Of a stretch of 12,140 nucleotides of DNA, positions 2,769-12,140 are shown one piece after another. How positions within the stretch are numbered: position 1 is the stretch's first letter; each line of letters starts with the position of its first letter. The notes beneath the pieces were generated by a model. That model was not told the DNA's origin. It saw only the letters and a program-made list of their open reading frames with translations, and did not search any database. Position numbers and translations under genes: made by a program. Source of the stretch: Nitrospinae bacterium RIFCSPLOWO2_12_FULL_45_22 (GTDB lineage Bacteria > 2-12-FULL-45-22). The stretch spans positions 1 to 12,140 of the forward strand of contig MHDQ01000161.1 in the NCBI GenBank assembly GCA_001803565.1, given 5' to 3'.

Positions 2769-3142
2769 TGAACTTTCCCCAAAATTTTATCCCTGGAAGG
2801 GTAAATTAACGTATGGTAGATGGTTTTAGAAGACCTCACTTCCCACTCCTTACGATGTATGTATCTTTGTGCCCTCTGCAAGCTCGACGTCTCGGTGGTT
2901 ACACCAGATATTATAGAATTACCCGCATAATTGCCCTTAGTGCTCTACTCCATAATTACGGTGACGTATTTGAGAGAAAGTGCTTATGATAAGGAAACCA
3001 GGAATACAGGAGAGATTAATTTCCTGGCCTCTTGGCTTCCTAATAAAAAAGAAGGCAAAAAATAGGCATAATACGTAACTGTATTTATGAAATGAAGCCC
3101 TTAGTGATAAAATTTTGGAGGATGTTCAGTCGAGATGGTGGG

Positions 3143-3171
3143 TTGTTCTGGGGGCGTAATATTAGTATAAT
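3143..3171 (+). promoter_or_regulatory. candidate promoter for the plus-strand acyl-CoA dehydrogenase
   Basis: A perfect TATAAT at 3166-3171 lies 17 bases after TTGTTC (3143-3148), a weak -35 that matches three of six consensus positions. A start near 3178 would give a leader of about 50 bases ending in AGGAGG-CGGGAGGG just before the ATG at 3229. Confidence 0.5.
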
Positions 3172-3228
3172 CATAGTGATAGTTATTTCGGAATTATTAT
3201 AACCGAATAGCAAGAGGAGGCGGGAGGG

Positions 3229-4401
3229 ATGGAATTTGGGTTTACTAAGGAGCAGGAGCAATTGAGAGAGGGAGTACGGAGTTTCTTGGAGCAGGAGCTA
3301 GCCGCAGAAAGCTTTGCCGCCCGCAGTAACCAGTGGGTAGAGGGGTTCTCCCAGGAATTCTCTCGTAAGGTAGCCCAGCGGGGATGGATAGGGATGACCT
3401 GGCCCAGGGAGTATAGTGGACAGGGCCGTAGCTATATTGACCGGGCAATACTCATGGAGGAGATGCTCCGCTACCAGGCGCCTATTGGTTACCATTTTCT
3501 GGGGGATCGCCAGGTAGGCCCCTCGCTTATGCATTTCGGTAGCGATGAACTGAAGAAGGAGTTCCTGCCCAGGATAATCAATGCCAGCGTCTCTTTCTGC
3601 CTGGGCTTTAGTGAGCCCGATGCCGGTTCTGACCTGGTAGCGGTTAGGACTAATGCCCGGGAAGAAGGCGATTATTATGTCATTAATGGCCAGAAGGTAT
3701 GGACCAGCCTGGCCCATAAGGCCGATTATATCTGGATACTGGCCCGTACCGACCCCGAGGCGCCCAAGCATAAAGCCCTGAGCGAGCTGATTATTGACCT
3801 GAAGAGCCCGGGGATTACTATCCGACCAATAATAAATATGGCCGGAGCCCACTCTTTTAATGAAGTATTTTTTGAAGAAGTGAAAACACCCAGGACTTAT
3901 CTGGTAGGGGGGAAGAACCGGGGGTTTTATCAGATTATGACCCAGGTGGACTATGAAAGGGCTGGCCTGGAGCGGCTCATGCAGAACTACCCCTTATTTG
4001 AAAAGATTATTAAGTTCCTAAGGGAGGATAAGGGCGAAGGCGCCCGGCTCCGTAAAGACCCGATCATAAGGGACAGTATTGGCCGGTTAGAGGTGGAGTA
4101 TCAGACCGGGAGGCTATTCTGCTATTATGTAGCCTGGGTCTTGGATCAAGGCCGGATACCTAACTATGAAGCGGCCCTGTGTAAGGCATATTGTACCCAG
4201 TTCGAGCAGCGCTTAAATGATATTGCTACCCGCATATTAGGGTTATATGGCCAGCTCTTACCCGGTTCAAAATGGGCACCCATAAATGGTGAAGCCCCTG
4301 AGTCCTATCTCTTCGGCCCCTCTTATACTTTACAGGGTGGCACTGTGGAGATCCTAAAGAATATTGTGGCTACCCGCGGGCTGGGACTCCCCACCTCATA
4401 A
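3229..4401 (+). CDS. acyl-CoA dehydrogenase, divergent FadE-type
   Basis: This is a 390-residue member of the acyl-CoA dehydrogenase family, complete at both ends. The N-terminal helical domain starts MEFGFTKEQEQLREGVRSFL. The flavin/substrate motif FSEPDAGSD is at residues 127-135, followed by the beta-domain strands NGQKVWTS (153-160). The C-terminal domain ends in YTLQGGTVEILKNIVATRGL (366-385). The usual catalytic Glu position (E of YEGTSQ) is Gly370. A Glu at the helix-G position (Glu243 in VDYERAG) is the likely base, as in isovaleryl-CoA dehydrogenase. The segment where many members have VQFG(R/K)PI is replaced by a charged loop (267-279), so substrate handling probably differs from the neighbour at 1451. 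The start is fixed by AGGAGG 8 bases upstream. Enzymes of this looser subclass often serve sterol, branched or CoA-ring substrates and can pair with a second subunit, but nothing here identifies the substrate. Confidence 0.9.
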   Translation: MEFGFTKEQEQLREGVRSFLEQELAAESFAARSNQWVEGFSQEFSRKVAQRGWIGMTWPREYSGQGRSYIDRAILMEEMLRYQAPIGYHFLGDRQVGPSLMHFGSDELKKEFLPRIINASVSFCLGFSEPDAGSDLVAVRTNAREEGDYYVINGQKVWTSLAHKADYIWILARTDPEAPKHKALSELIIDLKSPGITIRPIINMAGAHSFNEVFFEEVKTPRTYLVGGKNRGFYQIMTQVDYERAGLERLMQNYPLFEKIIKFLREDKGEGARLRKDPIIRDSIGRLEVEYQTGRLFCYYVAWVLDQGRIPNYEAALCKAYCTQFEQRLNDIATRILGLYGQLLPGSKWAPINGEAPESYLFGPSYTLQGGTVEILKNIVATRGLGLPTS

Positions 4402-4486
4402 ATTGGGATTGGTTTAATAAACCCTAACAGTTAGGTAGCCATTACTCAAAATTTATTACTTGACAACTTTCTCATTTTGGGTTAAG

Positions 4487-4517
4487 AAAGAATAAAAATT
4501 TAGTATTTTTATTCTTT
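4487..4517 (+). terminator. AT-rich 13-bp perfect hairpin downstream of the acyl-CoA dehydrogenase
   Basis: AAAGAATAAAAAT (4487-4499) and ATTTTTATTCTTT (4505-4517) are perfect complements around a 5-base loop TTAGT. The right arm is T-rich, as in the tail of an intrinsic terminator, but each arm contains only one G or C, so the stem is weak. It lies 86 bases after the stop of the gene at 3229. It may instead be a protein-binding palindrome. Confidence 0.45.
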
Positions 4518-4609
4518 TGTAGACCAATAACCAATTCCGGGAGTCTAAAAACCCTTATCCCCATTTTGCTAAAACTTCTCTTAGTTAATAAGGTTACCAA
4601 AAATTTTTA

Positions 4610-4638
4610 TTGCTTAAATTTAGGATTTAGTGTATATT
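4610..4638 (+). promoter_or_regulatory. candidate promoter for rho
   Basis: TTGCTT (4610-4615) and TATATT (4633-4638) are 17 bases apart. The -10 matches five of six consensus positions and the -35 three. A start near 4645 would leave a leader of about 307 bases, in line with the long regulated leaders known for rho in other bacteria. Confidence 0.4.
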
Positions 4639-4951
4639 GAATCGGTAGCGATTACTTACCGCATTTGGGAAGACATTTTCTATCCCTCATCAAATAAACC
4701 TTGGTAAAAACTCAATAGAAATAACCACAATTCCTCTTTTAGCCCTTAATATTTCTTGCGAGATTGCCGAAAAATCCTTTTGTGGTGTGAGAAGATAAGA
4801 AGATAATTGGTAGGAACATTCAACCCTTAGCTTCGACTCAAGAATAAAATTACCTCCGTTCATCTAATAATGCCAATAAGAGTAAAGGCTCAGGCAAATC
4901 TTTAGAGCGGCAACCCATTACCAACCTTCTGTTAAAAGTAAAGGAGACAAG

Positions 4952-6301
4952 ATGGTAGAGACAACAGTTTCTAGGACTAATAGCGTAGTAGAGAGCAAAC
5001 ATACTAAGAGCGGCGAAGAGACTATCCAGAAAGCTGACGGTCAAGCTCTCCATATCGGGGAATTGAAAGAGATGAGTATTCAAAAATTGCTGGAGATAGC
5101 CAAAGCGCTTGATATACCCGGGAGCAGTAATCTAAAAAAGCAAGAACTGATCTTCCAAATCTTAAAAGCCCAAACAGAAAAGAGTGGTTTGATCTTTGCT
5201 GAAGGTGTGTTAGAAACCTTACCGGAAGGGTTTGGGTTTCTCCGCGCCCCAGATTATAACTACTTGCCTGGCCCGGATGATATTTATATCTCTCCTTCGC
5301 AAATCAGGAAGTTTGATCTACGGACGGGCGATACCGTTTCAGGCCAGATCCGTCCCCCCAAAGAAGGGGAGAAGTATTTTGCTTTGCTTAAAGTAGAGGC
5401 AGTAAATTTCGAGTCGCCCGAGTTAGCGGCAGGCAAGCTCCTTTTTGATAACCTGACACCCCTGTATCCCAACAAGCACATCAAACTAGAAGTAGGGCCG
5501 GACAACTTATGTGCCCGGGTAATGGACCTGCTGACCCCTATTGGCAAAGGGCAGCGGGGCCTCGTAGTTGCCCCTCCCAGGACGGGCAAGACCATGCTCC
5601 TACAGACCATTGCCAATTCCATAACCCGTAATCACCCAGAAATTTACCTGATTGTCTTATTGATAGATGAGAGGCCGGAAGAAGTCACTGATATGGAGCG
5701 ATCAGTAAAGGGCGAGGTAATAAGCTCTACCTTTGATGAGCCGGCCCATAGGCATATCCAGGTAGCAGAGATTGTCTTAGAAAAGGCGAAGCGCTTAACG
5801 GAACACAAAAGAGATGTAGTAATATTGTTAGATAGTCTTACCCGGCTAGCCCGGGCATATAACACTATGGCCCCACCTAGCGGTAAGGTCTTGTCTGGTG
5901 GGATAGACTCCAATGCCTTGCAGCGCCCTAAGAGGTTCTTTGGAGCTGCACGGAATCTGGAGGAAGGGGGTAGCCTAACCATTATTGCAACTGCTTTGAT
6001 TGATACTGGTAGTCGGATGGATGATGTTATTTTTGAAGAATTCAAAGGGACAGGCAATATGGAGCTTAATCTGGATCGCCGTCTGGTGGATAGACGGATA
6101 TTTCCCGCAATTGATCTTGCCCGCTCAGGTACGAGAAAGGAAGAGCTATTGCTGCCACAGGATGAACTCCATAAGATATGGGTCCTGAGAAAAGTTTTGA
6201 CCCCTCTAAATTTGGTGGAATGTATGGAACTATTATTAGAAAAACTGGCTAAGACCAAATCCAATAAAGAATTCCTAAATTCAATGAATAGTTTAGATTA
6301 A
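4952..6301 (+). CDS. rho: transcription termination factor Rho
   Basis: This is a hexameric RNA-dependent ATPase/helicase that loads on C-rich RNA and dissociates elongating RNA polymerase. The protein has 449 residues. Residues 1-35 are a low-complexity extension. Residues about 37-75 are the Rho N-terminal SAP-like helices ([18 protein letters not shown]), and about 80-155 the cold-shock-like RNA-binding fold ([25 protein letters not shown]). The ATPase core carries Walker A APPRTGKT (207-214, Lys213), the catalytic-Glu segment [11 protein letters not shown] (237-247), Walker [11 protein letters not shown] (289-298), the Q-loop [14 protein letters not shown] (310-323) and the R-loop [11 protein letters not shown] (362-372). 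All expected elements are intact. It lacks the long insertion seen in some high-GC actinobacterial Rho proteins. AAAGGAG lies 5 bases before the ATG. The gene appears monocistronic, with a long leader suggesting self-regulation. Confidence 0.97.
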
Positions 6302-6476
6302 CAAACGGTGCTCACCCCTTCTTTTCAATTACATCCCTCATTCCGGAAAGCTGGAAATGCCTAAGTTAGTAATTGTTTAGCCAAATAAAGTCTTCTAAAA
6401 TATAGCCGCAAAGAAGCACAAAAATAAGATTAAACCACCAAGGTACAAAGAACGTTGGACGTGTCCGTCTCTAAGC

Positions 6477-6562
6477 CGTTAAGGGTAAGGCGTGAGGGCG
6501 TAAGGGGTATCTCCCTATGCCTTACTTTTTACGCTCTCACTACTTACGCCTTACTCCTTACG
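6477..6562. repeat. imperfect inverted repeat with GTAAGGCGT-type words
   Basis: The left arm CGTTAAGGGTAAGGCGTGAG and following GGCGTAAGGGGTA (6477-6509) is complementary, with gaps and mismatches, to the right arm GCCTTAC...TTACGCCTTACTCCTTACG (6519-6562). Words of the form GTAAGG recur several times on the plus strand in the left arm and on the minus strand in the right arm. Transcribed from rho it would fold into a long stem and could protect or end the rho transcript. Confidence 0.65.
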
Positions 6563-6572
6563 ATAAGTCCTA

Positions 6573-6611
6573 ACAGTCACGGATCACGAGCGTAAAATTC
6601 TTTGTGACTGT
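6573..6611 (+). promoter_or_regulatory. inverted repeat just upstream of the rpe ribosome site
   Basis: ACAGTCAC (6573-6580) and GTGACTGT (6604-6611) are perfect 8-bp complements with a 23-base spacer. The right arm ends about 9 bases before the AGGAGGT of rpe. In RNA this would make a stem right beside the ribosome site; in DNA it could be a dimeric-protein operator. It may be chance. Confidence 0.35.
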
Positions 6612-6637
6612 ACAATATAAGGAGGTAAGCCCTAATC

Positions 6638-7303
6638 ATGTCTAGAAAGAAGATTGTCCCCTCTATCCTATCCGCAGATTTGACCCGGCTGGCACAAGAG
6701 GTTGAAGCAGCCGAAAAAGGTGGTGCTGATTGGCTCCATGTAGATGTAATGGATGGACACTTTGCACCCACTATTACTATCGGACCTCTGATAGTGTCTG
6801 CCCTCAGAAAAACTACTAAGCTGCCGCTCGATGTCCATCTCATGATTGAAAACCCTGATAGATACATTGAGCAGTTCTCTGAGGCCGGTGCCGACATCAT
6901 CACTGTGCCGGTAGAGGCCTGTACCCATCTCCATCGGACGGTTCATTTTATCAAGGATAGAGGGTGCCAGGTTGGGGTCTGCCTTAATCCAGCTACCCCG
7001 CTATCCCTTCTGGACTGTATCCTTCCGGACCTGGATCTGGTTATCTTACTAATGGTCAATCCCGGCTTCAAGGGGCAGAAGCTTGATCCAGCCCTGCTTG
7101 CCAAGATAAGGGCCCTCCGTAAGCTGATAAATGAAGGGGGGTTGCAGGCCAATATTGAAGCCGATGGTGGTATCAGTCTGGATAATATAAGCCAGGTAGC
7201 CGGGGCTGGGGCTGATATTTTCGTGGCTGGGACAGCCGTCTTCTCCAGCAAAGATTATGGTGAGACTATAAGTAAGTTGCGGAACCTTGCCGAGTCTGCG
7301 TAA
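6638..7303 (+). CDS. rpe: ribulose-phosphate 3-epimerase
   Basis: A 221-residue TIM-barrel metalloenzyme interconverting ribulose 5-phosphate and xylulose 5-phosphate in the pentose phosphate pathway. It is full length. Family signatures are VPSILSADLTRL (7-18), LHVDVMDGHF (33-42), DVHLMIENPD (65-74), VNPGFKGQ (140-147) and EADGGIS (174-180). Predicted metal ligands are His34, Asp36, His67 and Asp176, with Asp36 and Asp176 as the acid-base pair, all present. Small departures from the housekeeping consensus are LLMVNPGFKGQ where MSVNPGFGGQ is usual, and ADGGI where VDGGI is usual. These leave room for an Rpe-like enzyme acting on another ketose phosphate. AGGAGGT lies 11 bases before the ATG, a rather long spacing. 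It faces an LsrF-like gene, which recalls the pairing of LsrF with the Rpe-like LsrE in the AI-2 operon, though this sequence is closer to ordinary Rpe. Confidence 0.93.
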   Translation: MSRKKIVPSILSADLTRLAQEVEAAEKGGADWLHVDVMDGHFAPTITIGPLIVSALRKTTKLPLDVHLMIENPDRYIEQFSEAGADIITVPVEACTHLHRTVHFIKDRGCQVGVCLNPATPLSLLDCILPDLDLVILLMVNPGFKGQKLDPALLAKIRALRKLINEGGLQANIEADGGISLDNISQVAGAGADIFVAGTAVFSSKDYGETISKLRNLAESA

Positions 7304-7347
7304 TCTCCTCACCTGGTAACCATTAAGTTAACCCCCTTCGGCAGGAC

Positions 7348-7428
7348 TTTTTAGACAGGATTAACAGGATTTACAATTTTTTATTATTTGTATTATCCTG
7401 TTTTCATCCTGTAAATCCTGTCTAAAAA
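7348..7428. repeat. palindromic repeat between convergent genes; possible two-way terminator
   Basis: TTTTTAGACAGGATTAACAG...AT (7348-7370) and the complementary arm 7406-7428 match over 23 bases with one mismatch, around a 35-base AT-rich loop that carries another ATCCTG word. The arm begins with Ts on one strand and ends with As, so both strands give a stem followed by a short U run. It sits between the stops of rpe (7303) and the lsrF-like gene (7435). The GACAGGATTAACAGGAT text is a dispersed repeat I recognise from many unrelated bacterial genomes. Confidence 0.75.
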
Positions 7429-7434
7429 TAGTTA

Positions 7435-8229
7435 TTATTTCTTATTTTTTAGACTTTGGTACAGGTCGTGGGCTTGCTTAGGGTTAGCCTTTTCATGCAC
7501 AACAGCACGCAGAGCCTGGATCATAGCTACCGGGTGCCCATCTTGCCAGACATTCCTTCCCAGATTCACACCAATAGCCCCTTTCTGCATGCCATCATAA
7601 ACGAATTCTAATACCTCAAGCGGGGTTTCACACTTGGGCCCACCAGCCATAACCACAGGCACTGGACATCCATTTACTACCTTGTCAAAACCGTCATCAC
7701 ACCAGTAGGTCTTTACTACCCGGGCCCCTAGCTCGGCTGCTATACGGCAGCTTAGTGCCAGGTAGCGGGCATCACGTTTTTCCAATTCTCGGCCCACGGC
7801 AGTAACGGCCATTACTGGAATGCCATAATCTTCGGCCTCATCAACCAGCTTTGCCAGATTTAATAGGGTTTGGCGCTCATAATCACTACCTACAAAGACA
7901 GAGATGCCTACTGCCGCCGCATTAAGCCGGAGGGCTTCTTTAATAGAAGTGGTTATACCTTCATTAGCCAGGTCTTTCCCGGCCATACTGGTACCGCCAG
8001 AGACCCTGAGGATGATTGGTTTACTATTGGTAGGATCTACGGCTGAGCGTAATACTCCCCTGGTAACAAAGAGGGCATCGCAATAAGGGAGCAATGGTTT
8101 GATCGTCTCTCCTGGCCTTTCCAGTTTACTAGTAGGCCCCTGAAAATATCCGTGGTCTATCGGTAAAAAGAAGCAATGACCATCAGGTTTAATCAATTGT
8201 GACAGCCGGTTCTTCATTCCCCAATCCAT
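7435..8229 (-). CDS. LsrF-like class I aldolase/thiolase (DeoC/FbaB family)
   Basis: A 264-residue TIM-barrel protein that reads closely like E. coli LsrF, the thiolase that splits 3-hydroxy-5-phosphonooxypentane-2,4-dione in AI-2 breakdown. Shared segments are DWGMKNRLSQ (2-11), IDHGYFQGPTSKLER (24-38), TRGVLRS (56-62), RIAAELGARVVKTYW (162-176) and GCPVPVVMAGG (187-197). Lys173 in VVKTYW matches the Schiff-base lysine of LsrF. It lacks the roughly 27-residue N-terminal extension of the E. coli enzyme. The start is set by AGGGAGGG 8 bases before ATG 8229; a TTG 27 bases further up lies inside a tandem repeat and is unlikely. It follows a zinc dehydrogenase gene by 51 bases on the same strand, probably co-transcribed. 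No lsr transporter or kinase is in the window, so a different phosphoketose or ketose substrate is possible. Confidence 0.85.
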   Translation of the reverse strand: MDWGMKNRLSQLIKPDGHCFFLPIDHGYFQGPTSKLERPGETIKPLLPYCDALFVTRGVLRSAVDPTNSKPIILRVSGGTSMAGKDLANEGITTSIKEALRLNAAAVGISVFVGSDYERQTLLNLAKLVDEAEDYGIPVMAVTAVGRELEKRDARYLALSCRIAAELGARVVKTYWCDDGFDKVVNGCPVPVVMAGGPKCETPLEVLEFVYDGMQKGAIGVNLGRNVWQDGHPVAMIQALRAVVHEKANPKQAHDLYQSLKNKK

Positions 8230-8247
8230 ATTAATAACCCTCCCTAC

Positions 8248-8275
8248 AATAACCAATAACCAATAACCAATAACT
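8248..8275. repeat. four 7-base tandem repeats (AATAACC)
   Basis: Three exact copies of AATAACC and a fourth ending AATAACT run from 8248 to 8275 between the dehydrogenase stop and the ribosome site of the LsrF-like gene. A related text, ACCAATAACCAATT, occurs near 4523. The array is a likely place for slippage and might change the spacing in the intergenic RNA. Confidence 0.75.
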
Positions 8276-8280
8276 TATAA

Positions 8281-9309
8281 CTAGCGCTGGGGTTCAATAA
8301 TCACCTTGATAGAGTCCTGGGCTCCGGCGACAAGCTGAAACCCCATGGCTGTTTCTGCCAGGCTTAGACGATGAGTAATCATCTCATGCACACGGACCCT
8401 ACGAGCCCGGATCAGTTCCACTGCCGTTGTATAGTCCGCAGGACTACCGGCATAGGAAGTAGTTAGCGTTATGTCGTTGCGAAAAAATAGGTCATTCACT
8501 GAAATAGGAATGGTAACATCCGGGTCTGTCGGGGCAAAGAATAGGACTGTCCCACCCCGCTCTACCGACTGTAATGCCTGAGTGATAGCTGATTTAGCGC
8601 CAGTGCATACCAGCACCCGATCAGCCAGCCGGCCATTATTGACTTCCCGCACCCCGGCCGATACATCCTCTTTAGCATGGATTACTGCCTCGGCCCCAAA
8701 CCGTCTTGCGGCCTCTAGCCGGTATTCAGCCACATCGGTTGCTATTAAGCGCCCGGCACCAAGGGCCCGGGCTAGTTCCAGGTGGAGCAATCCCGAAATG
8801 CCAGAACCAATAACGAGTACCGTCTGACCCGGTTGGATGCGTGCTATCCTTTGCCCCCGCAAGATACAGGCCAGGGGCTCAGTAAAAGTTCCCTCCTCAT
8901 AGGATACCTCATCTGGTAACCGATACACCCCACGATCTACATTGATAGCCGGTAGCCGAAGGTATTCAGCAAAACCACCCGGATCAAAATTTGTCTGGCG
9001 GAGAGTATCACAGACCGTATGATGATCGTTAAGACAATAGTAACAGGTATTACACGGGACATGATGGGCTACCGATACCCGATCCCCTTCGTGGTAGCGT
9101 TCTACCCCGGCACCCACAGCGACAACCTCTCCAGCAATCTCATGACCCAGCACTAAAGGGGCCTTGTGGATGCGATACCATTCCATCACATCACTACCGC
9201 AGATACCACTGGCCTGTACCCGTATTAACAATTCTCCCGGGCCGATTGGAGGAACAGGCATCTCCTCCACACGAATATCCCGATTGTTATAGTACATAGC
9301 AACCCGCAT
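8281..9309 (-). CDS. zinc-dependent medium-chain alcohol dehydrogenase (sorbitol/threonine dehydrogenase type)
   Basis: A 342-residue MDR-family oxidoreductase. The catalytic domain carries GICGSD (35-40, Cys37), GHE (55-57, His56 and Glu57) and FTEPLAC (142-148, Glu144) as catalytic-zinc residues. Structural zinc ligands are Cys86, Cys89, Cys92 and Cys100 in CNTCYYC...C. The Rossmann domain has VIGSGISG (167-173 core) and an Asp (D192) at the end of the second strand, which favours NAD over NADP. The family oxidises polyols, threonine or butanediol; the exact substrate is not readable. ATG at 9309 has AAGGGA 8 bases upstream; a TTG 36 bases earlier is in frame but has no better site. It is followed 51 bases later by the LsrF-like gene, suggesting a joint sugar or polyol pathway with the facing epimerase. 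Confidence 0.92.
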   Translation of the reverse strand: MRVAMYYNNRDIRVEEMPVPPIGPGELLIRVQASGICGSDVMEWYRIHKAPLVLGHEIAGEVVAVGAGVERYHEGDRVSVAHHVPCNTCYYCLNDHHTVCDTLRQTNFDPGGFAEYLRLPAINVDRGVYRLPDEVSYEEGTFTEPLACILRGQRIARIQPGQTVLVIGSGISGLLHLELARALGAGRLIATDVAEYRLEAARRFGAEAVIHAKEDVSAGVREVNNGRLADRVLVCTGAKSAITQALQSVERGGTVLFFAPTDPDVTIPISVNDLFFRNDITLTTSYAGSPADYTTAVELIRARRVRVHEMITHRLSLAETAMGFQLVAGAQDSIKVIIEPQR

Positions 9310-9447
9310 AGTATTTATCCCTTTATGATGAATTCTCTTTAGCAACTAAATCGAGAAACAGAATAGATCACAATAAGCTACCCCCCTGACCCTCACGCTG
9401 TCCGTTGTGACCGACTGAAACAGGTTATCATAATATGGTAGTGGGTG

Positions 9448-10216: not shown

Positions 10217-10245
10217 TTGACTGTGATTATTAAAGGTGGTATAGA
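10217..10245 (+). promoter_or_regulatory. candidate promoter for the SDR-fold/ceramidase-fold pair
   Basis: TTGACT (10217-10222, five of six) and TATAGA (10240-10245, four of six) are 17 bases apart. A start near 10252 gives a leader of about 80 bases before AAGGAGGGG and the ATG at 10333. Confidence 0.5.
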
Positions 10246-10332
10246 AAAATCGGCCATAGGGATGATCCATTTGATACCCTGATGTGATATTAAGATTTTT
10301 AAACGGCTTTTTAAGGGAAGGAGGGGTTGATT

Positions 10333-11136
10333 ATGCAACGATATTATCCGGGAAGATTTGCTGGCAAAGTAGCGCTGGTAATGGGTGTAGGAAGAGGTAG
10401 CACCAAAGAAGCGGCGGTTCGGATGGCAGCCGAAGGAGCCGATATAGCGCTGACCGATATTGTCAAGGAGTATGTGGATAAAGCTGCCGAGGAATGCCGG
10501 GGTTATGGCCGGAAAGCGCTGGCCTTTGCGGCTGATGCCGCTGATGGGAAATTGACAGGAGAGATTGTTGAACAAGCTAATAAAGAATTGGCTAAGATTG
10601 ACATCCTGGTCTATGCCGCGATCCCTATTGGTCTTGGTGAGAAGAAAGGGGCCTTACGCCCCTTCCATGAGACTAGCGTTGAAGAGTGGGATAGGGAATA
10701 TGCTGTGACATTGAGGGGTTTTACCTATGCCCTCCGGGCCGTTCTATCCGGCATGATGGAGCGCAATTATGGTAAGATAGTATTTATTGCTACTGATGCA
10801 GCCCGGCAGGGCAGCACCGGCCAGACGGTTGATGGGGCCATGAAGGCGGCTGGGATCGGCTTAGTCAAGACCCTGGCTAGAGAGTATGCCCGCTATAAGA
10901 TCAATGTCAATGTAGTCTCTCCGGGTCCCCATGCTACTCCTTTAGTAAAGGAGCAACTAGAGGCCGCTGGGGCTTTCAGCACCAAGGTCATCGAGGGGAT
11001 GGTTAGCTGGGTACCATTTAAGCGATTGGGGGAACCAGATGAAATCGGTGCGGTAACCTGTTTTATGGCCTCTGACGACGCCAGCTATATGACAGGCCAG
11101 ACCATTAGTGTCAGTGGCGGCCTTAGTATGTTCTAA
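10333..11136 (+). CDS. SDR-fold protein with degenerate catalytic tetrad (likely pseudoenzyme or non-canonical)
   Basis: A 267-residue protein with the full length and layout of a classical short-chain dehydrogenase, from FAGKVALVMG at the N-terminus to VSPGPHATPL (193-202) and YMTGQTISVSGG near the C-terminus. The key residues are changed. TGxxxGxG is MGVGRGST (17-24), NNAG is YAAI (94-97), the tetrad Asn is Thr126 (AVTLRG), the Ser is Thr154 (FIATDA), and the YxxxK Tyr is Asp167 (VDGAMK); only Lys171 remains. The frame is otherwise intact, with no stops or length changes, so it is not simply decayed. BbsC of the BbsCD benzylsuccinate-pathway dehydrogenase is a precedent for an inactive SDR subunit with a catalytic partner, but no partner SDR is visible here. 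AAGGAGGGG lies 6 bases before ATG 10333; a TTG at 10327 is a weaker start. It is coupled by TAATG to the next gene. Confidence 0.88.
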   Translation: MQRYYPGRFAGKVALVMGVGRGSTKEAAVRMAAEGADIALTDIVKEYVDKAAEECRGYGRKALAFAADAADGKLTGEIVEQANKELAKIDILVYAAIPIGLGEKKGALRPFHETSVEEWDREYAVTLRGFTYALRAVLSGMMERNYGKIVFIATDAARQGSTGQTVDGAMKAAGIGLVKTLAREYARYKINVNVVSPGPHATPLVKEQLEAAGAFSTKVIEGMVSWVPFKRLGEPDEIGAVTCFMASDDASYMTGQTISVSGGLSMF

Positions 11137-12140
11137 TGTTGGAAGCAGGGGCGGCGCAAGTAGATATCACACCGGCTTTATCGGAAAAGGTAGTAAGGCT
11201 GGCGGGCTATCGGGCCAGGAATAAAGCCCCTGCCCGAGGTGTTTTAGATAGGCTTCATGTCAGGGCCTTATTCCTGCGTCAGGGTAGCGATAACCTGATA
11301 ATAGTCAGTTGTGACCAACTCTGGATCAGCCACCGGATAAAGGAACTGGTGCTGGAGGCAATAAGTCCCCCCTATCAGGTGGTATCCCGGGAATTGCTTA
11401 TCTGTGCTACCCATACCCATTCCGGGCCCGCTGGCCTCACCGACCATCCCCTGGCCGTGGAACTATTTGGCCCTTATGACACCGAGCTATGGGAAATTAC
11501 CTGCCATAATCTTATTGCGGCTATTAACCTCGCTGCCCGCTCTTTAAGGCCCGCCAGCTTAGCTATTACGGCTGCCCCGTGGGAGGGATACACGATTAAT
11601 CGGCGCCACCCGGCTAAGCCCATAGACCCCCAGATCACCCTTCTCAAGATAGAAGATAATCAAAGCCATCTAATTGCCCTGGTAACCAATTTTACTGCCC
11701 ACCCAACCATCCTGGGGCCGGATAATCTACTGCTCTCGGCCGACTTTCCGGGATATTTTACCCAGGAGCTCCAACGGCTTATTGGGGGGGATCCGGTAAT
11801 TATATTCTGTAACGGCACTCAGGGAGATCAAGCTGTAAGGCAGGATGTATTGATAGGAGAGGATGCTTATGCCCGGTGTAGCTATTTTGGCAAGGCTTTG
11901 GCCCAGCGTGTATACAGCATGACCTACGAGGCACAAACTGGACCCCTGAATAAGCTCTCTTCTTTTCTCCTCGAACAACATCTACCACCGGCTACTAATA
12001 AGCTCATGTCCTTTACCCATGCTCCTCTCCAGGGGTTCATAATAGACAATGCCCTCTTTCTGGCAGTGCCGGGTGAGGTGATAGCGGCCCTGGGATTACA
12101 GATCAAGCAAGAAGCACAAAGGCAGGGTTACTGGCCGGTA
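11136..12140 (+). CDS. neutral/alkaline ceramidase-fold protein, N-terminal part (truncated by window edge)
   Basis: The frame opens at the ATG of TAATG, sharing one base with the SDR stop, and stays open for 335 codons to the right edge. The N-terminal GAAQVDITPA (5-14), ICATHTHSGPAG (89-100) and FTAHPTILG...SADFPGY (186-207) are typical of the neutral ceramidase family (N-terminal domain). Predicted metal ligands include His95 (of HTHSG) and His189, with Glu314 in VPGE as a likely third. In secreted ceramidases the nucleophile Ser sits in a GNLSPN loop. Here the matching loop is NGTQGDQAV (226-234), with Ala at the Ser place by my alignment. There is no signal peptide, so the protein is probably cytoplasmic. 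It is more likely an amidase or lactonase-like hydrolase of unknown substrate than a true ceramidase. It is almost certainly translated by coupling with the SDR gene. Confidence 0.85.
   Translation, partial: MLEAGAAQVDITPALSEKVVRLAGYRARNKAPARGVLDRLHVRALFLRQGSDNLIIVSCDQLWISHRIKELVLEAISPPYQVVSRELLICATHTHSGPAGLTDHPLAVELFGPYDTELWEITCHNLIAAINLAARSLRPASLAITAAPWEGYTINRRHPAKPIDPQITLLKIEDNQSHLIALVTNFTAHPTILGPDNLLLSADFPGYFTQELQRLIGGDPVIIFCNGTQGDQAVRQDVLIGEDAYARCSYFGKALAQRVYSMTYEAQTGPLNKLSSFLLEQHLPPATNKLMSFTHAPLQGFIIDNALFLAVPGEVIAALGLQIKQEAQRQGYWPV

Follow-up and report, generated by a model that had tools for sequence, protein, structure and literature searches.

A constrained SDR-fold protein with altered catalytic and cofactor residues in a Nitrospinae draft genome

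The window, by which we mean the whole stretch of 12,140 nucleotides that was analysed, encodes an SDR-fold protein in which three of the four residues of the catalytic tetrad and parts of both cofactor motifs are replaced, and the altered gene is held by constraint and is not decaying. The protein is probably unable to act as an NAD(H) dehydrogenase. By analogy with BbsC and its partner BbsD, it may be a non-redox acyl-CoA-binding pseudoenzyme that joins an active SDR, or some other ring-reduction enzyme, as its subunit or scaffold, a reading that we prefer tentatively and place a little short of an even chance. The features discussed below are collected in Table 1.

Table 1. Positions and reading of the features discussed (window coordinates unless a contig, C, is given; L, locus).
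Feature	Position	Strand	Basis or remark
Degenerate SDR-fold protein, 267 aa	10333..11136	+	Translation, Pfam, AlphaFold model
Shine-Dalgarno AAGGAGG ahead of ATG 10333	10318..10324	+	Direct reading; similarity to second copy begins here
Promoter-like TTGACT-17-TATAGA	10217..10245	+	Sub-consensus, 9/12 by eye; absent from promoter scan list
Ceramidase-fold (PF04734) gene	11136..12140	+	Start overlaps SDR stop (TAATG); runs off contig end
Possibly altered active site of ceramidase-fold gene	11811-11840		ATHTHSGPAG kept, NGTQGDQAV further on
LsrF-type aldolase and threonine/polyol-type zinc dehydrogenase	7435-8232 and 8281-9345	-	Adjacent genes
Second degenerate SDR lineage	L110 (C43) 4045-8479; L109 (C40) 2900-3673; L148
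HGD-D genes with one in-frame TGA each	C148:3053-4153 (L177); C53:6777-7883 (L178); C231:5340-6494 (L179)
Thiolase to HGD-D gene cluster	L112 (C69) 2840-12880
Cytochrome c oxidase subunit I lookalike	L114 (C278) 11491-13140		By eye

Classical SDR oxidoreductases carry an N-S-Y-K tetrad, whereas the translation of the window gene reads Thr126, Thr154, Asp167 and Lys171 (T-T-D-K). In the glycine motif, M17-G-V-G-R-G-S-T24, the Thr, the Ile and the third Gly (now Thr) of the canonical TGxxxGIG are replaced and the first two Gly are kept, and the NNAG position reads Y94-A-A-I97, followed by about five inserted residues. The residue changes, first noticed in a sequence-only reading of the same DNA, are confirmed by translation. 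That reading held that both cofactor motifs were lost; both are indeed altered, but the wording is slightly too strong, as Gly18, Gly22, Asp42 (the β2 acid), Asp68 and Pro197-Gly198 remain, and given these residues some nucleotide binding may still be possible. It was also right that frame and fold are intact: the frame is open throughout, Pfam adh_short_C2 covers residues 20–265 (8e-49), and an AlphaFold2 model built from an alignment of 42 sequences is confident over the whole length of an ordinary SDR fold (pLDDT 92.1, pTM 0.92), superposing on the FabG structure 2uvd with a Z score of 36.7 and an rmsd of 1.2 over 245 residues. Of its "good promoter and ribosome site", the ribosome site stands and the promoter is moderate. 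Among 136 SDR rows, Tyr and Lys are present in 125, the third Gly is missing in six, and only two, the window protein and a second copy of it, combine Asp with Lys. These are counts and not frequencies across all SDRs, because the rows were collected for their similarity to the window protein or to one other SDR of the genome and a few loci are duplicated.

This second copy lies on contig 171 of the same draft genome (85% complete, 321 contigs); its protein is 90% identical and keeps every altered residue. DNA similarity between the copies starts at the ribosome site and is lost some 10 bases or less from the stop codon, so the SDR gene is the only one that they have in common and their surroundings differ. 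Comparison of the two gives dN 0.047 and dS 0.36–0.46, with a dN/dS (ω) of 0.10 (bootstrap 0.06–0.16), which agrees with the earlier expectation that the gene is under selection, and the check proposed there for decay, a dN/dS near 1, did not bear decay out. The lowest value, ω of about 0.02 (dN 0.006, dS 0.30), belongs to residues 144–213, where one amino acid in 70 has changed; the shortage of substitutions in this stretch has a Fisher p of 0.004, but 0.04 if the stretch is regarded as picked by scanning. These values argue for constraint and not decay, and, together with the retention of the altered residues in a 90%-identical copy, they make the observation more than chance. The argument from constraint would be unchanged had contig 171 entered the draft from another strain and not arisen by duplication. 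That the gene is decaying, or an assembly artefact, might be suspected in a draft of so many contigs; against the low ω, the similar GC content of the two contigs (0.47 in each) and a frame intact in both of their differing contexts, this is scarcely credible.

With Tyr167, Ser154 and Asn126 missing, the third Gly changed to Thr, and Asn94 and Gly97 changed to Tyr and Ile, the protein would have lost NAD-dependent oxidation. That it is still an NAD(P)-dependent dehydrogenase, only with an unusual tetrad, could be defended from the retained Asp42, Asp68, two glycines, Lys171 and PG motif, and from locus L009 of the same genome, an SDR with Thr for the catalytic Ser in which Tyr and Lys are present; the window protein, however, combines the Gly-to-Thr, Asn94-to-Tyr and Asn126-to-Thr changes with Gly97 to Ile plus an insertion and Tyr167 to Asp, and continued dehydrogenase activity is accordingly a poor prospect. 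A neofunctionalised enzyme, in which a pocket of Asp167, Lys171 and Thr154 carries out non-redox hydration, isomerisation or hydrolysis of a cyclic acyl-CoA, has more to recommend it, since residues 144–213 are the most constrained stretch, they hold Thr154, Asp167 and Lys171 in identical form in both copies, and this constraint on the pocket exceeds what a pure scaffold needs. The comparison nevertheless involves two sequences only, the same residues also hold the αF helix and the PG loop, and we know of no SDR with Asp at position 167, which counts against such an enzyme; we regard it as the main rival reading, possible but unlikely. Slightly less likely again is the more specific proposal of an SDR fold without NAD whose Asp167 and Lys171 perform non-redox chemistry on cyclic acyl-CoA esters, in pathways with an unusually large benzoyl-CoA-reductase-family set.

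The closest kinship appears to be with BadH (2-hydroxycyclohexanecarboxyl-CoA dehydrogenase), from which the window protein differs in having T-T-D for N-S-Y and in changes to the third Gly, Asn94 and the GWD stretch. The best NCBIfam model for both copies is that of BadH (TIGR03206), at 197.9 bits for the window protein and 208 bits for the other copy; both scores fall short of the cut-off of 431 bits, which the canonical relatives tested also miss (309–350). Of 15 residues diagnostic of the BadH group as against FabG-type SDRs, the window pair keeps 14 (P110, F111, L138, D155, A156, R158, S161, V166, R183, R187, K218, S259, S261 and L264). The neighbouring group is truly BadH-type, because its canonical members adjoin BadI or BadI/MenB-like genes: L107 lies beside a BadI gene (TIGR03210, 477.6 bits against a cut-off of 467.6) and L104 beside a BadI/MenB-like one. 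Unlike these relatives, the window copy has no adjoining BadI gene.

In a tree of 74 SDRs the window pair joins the BadH group and a second degenerate lineage of the same genome (SH-aLRT 93). In a more careful tree of 32, the five degenerate proteins, and with them a sister relation between the window pair and the second lineage, reach a support of only 51/66, and a single clade of window protein and BadH is neither shown nor rejected (AU p 0.31); the stem branch is long (1.1–1.3) and calls for caution. The residue evidence for kinship with BadH is stronger than the tree evidence. Changes at near-invariant BadH positions affect 8 of 17 cofactor or catalytic sites and 16 of 69 sites elsewhere (p 0.051), a borderline difference that is used here only as a tendency for the losses to concentrate at the former.

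No further T-T-D-K orthologue was found in about 430 other sampled genomes, with the residue-by-residue check confined to the best matches; the search covered samples of 60 and 386 genomes, the own phylum (two genomes), the phyla of other matches, and plasmids. None of 50 loci from a scan of genome contigs is T-T-D-K, and other relatives reach about 41% identity at best. One locus, L018, at which a seeming D-S-T-K SDR adjoins one with N-S-Y-K, had the appearance of a BbsCD-like pair and was dropped when realignment gave an ordinary Tyr-Lys.

The genome encodes 17 full SDRs. Its second degenerate lineage (L006, L010, L148), which is present in two families of the order, reads Gln126, Thr154, Val/Ala/Pro167 and Gly171, and has in common with the window protein Thr154, Asp155, Arg158, Arg187, Lys218 and a position near the BadH group. 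Its identity to the window protein is 30–33%, and its losses differ: the glycine motif is kept and Lys171 and the PG motif are gone, the reverse of what is seen in the window protein. The contig 43 member (Gln-Thr-Val-Gly) has relatives on contig 40 and in one other genome of the order (59% identical). It is flanked on one side by an enoyl-CoA hydratase gene and on the other by a pair of genes of the benzoyl-CoA-reductase/2-hydroxyacyl-CoA-dehydratase family (HGD-D, PF06050), which score 438 bits against BzdN (cut-off 454) and 392 against BzdO (cut-off 449).

The second copy of the window gene has a FadL/TodX-type outer-membrane gene upstream and two HGD-D genes downstream. The genome has a single member of the ceramidase family, and the hydrolase next to the window gene is thus not a constant partner; a conserved functional link between the SDR and ceramidase genes, which the sequence-only reading had entertained, finds no support in these two observations. 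The clade of homologues always preceding a ceramidase-fold gene that it proposed to look for was not found; nor were homologues with a ceramidase neighbour and an N-S-Y-K tetrad met, although only a single pair of SDR and ceramidase neighbours is known. The active site of the ceramidase-fold neighbour may be altered too: ATHTHSGPAG is kept, and further on NGTQGDQAV is read in place of the GDxSP that carries the catalytic serine in neutral ceramidases.

The HGD-D context invites a further explanation, namely an acyl-CoA sensor or structural protein without an SDR partner, for instance a regulator or scaffold of HGD-D-type enzymes. An HGD-D pair directly follows the second copy, and another, one near BzdN/BzdO in score, follows a gene of the second degenerate lineage. 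The 12 kb contig of the window, however, has no HGD-D gene. The 3.67 Mb draft genome has 67 PF06050 matches, a very large set, and at such a frequency chance alone should place some of them beside genes of this kind; the adjacency is suggestive only. We consider this explanation improbable, although less so than retained dehydrogenase activity.

The pseudo-subunit reading draws together the altered residues in both copies, the low ω, the BadH-type residues, the HGD-D context of the second copy and the confident model, which leave it not quite evenly balanced against the other readings taken as a whole. A BadH-like ancestor would have given rise to a retained pseudo-dehydrogenase that kept the SDR fold, the C-terminal segment and the BadH-type residues, and in which loss of the third Gly, Asn94, Asn126, Ser154 and Tyr167 would have abolished NAD chemistry. 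A CoA ester may still be bound by Arg158, Arg183, Arg187 and Lys218, basic residues that are peculiar to the BadH group. In SDRs the C-terminal TGQxxSVSGGLxM segment is part of the oligomer contact, and its retention suggests that the protein still assembles, presumably into a hetero-oligomer. Neither the window nor contig 171 has an active SDR partner gene; since none adjoins, the partner would be encoded elsewhere, for example by the BadH-like protein with N-S-Y-K on contig 145 (L008).

BbsC of the benzylsuccinate pathway was put forward as a precedent from the outset, and aptly so: the title of reference 26 in PMC10818641 describes BbsCD as a heterotetramer with inactive pseudoenzyme subunits. 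The likeness is one of analogy, in that anaerobic aromatic acyl-CoA metabolism would have kept a pseudo-SDR in either case, and the window gene is of the same type in that catalytic and cofactor residues are lost and the gene is kept by selection. The two differ in that bbsC adjoins bbsD, whereas no BbsD-like partner gene adjoins either window copy. Fold searches with the model returned ordinary SDRs only among the matches listed; BbsC was not among them, nor among the 60 PDB matches listed, an absence that proves nothing. No bbs operon was found on the plasmids searched. Few cases of inactive SDR subunits are known, BbsC being the bacterial case compared here, and the window protein, if the pseudo-subunit reading is true, would be another in anaerobic ring metabolism, its residue losses differing from those of the second degenerate lineage in the same genome. 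Should it bind acyl-CoA without NAD, the role of an SDR lacking its cofactor would become directly testable.

The genome is unusually rich in ring-reduction-type enzymes. A cluster on contig 69 holds thiolase, DUF35-like, SDR, MaoC-like, UbiD-like, OYE/BaiCD-like and HGD-D genes; its thiolase scores 289 bits with the BbsB model, under the cut-off of 750, and DUF35, MaoC and UbiD were named by eye. The cytochrome c oxidase subunit I lookalike on contig 278 stands in a genome that otherwise abounds in enzymes of anaerobic type. Elsewhere in the window, the LsrF-type aldolase scores 375.8 with NF006081 (NCBIfam cut-off 297). In three HGD-D genes the single in-frame TGA sits exactly where the other HGD-D proteins compared have a conserved Cys (RDS*, RDS* and RDL* against SESC, RDMC, RDLC, PEIC and PETC) and is followed by predicted hairpins of −21.0, −16.6 and −9.9 kcal/mol in L177, L178 and L179 respectively, making these codons candidates for selenocysteine at a presumed cluster ligand.
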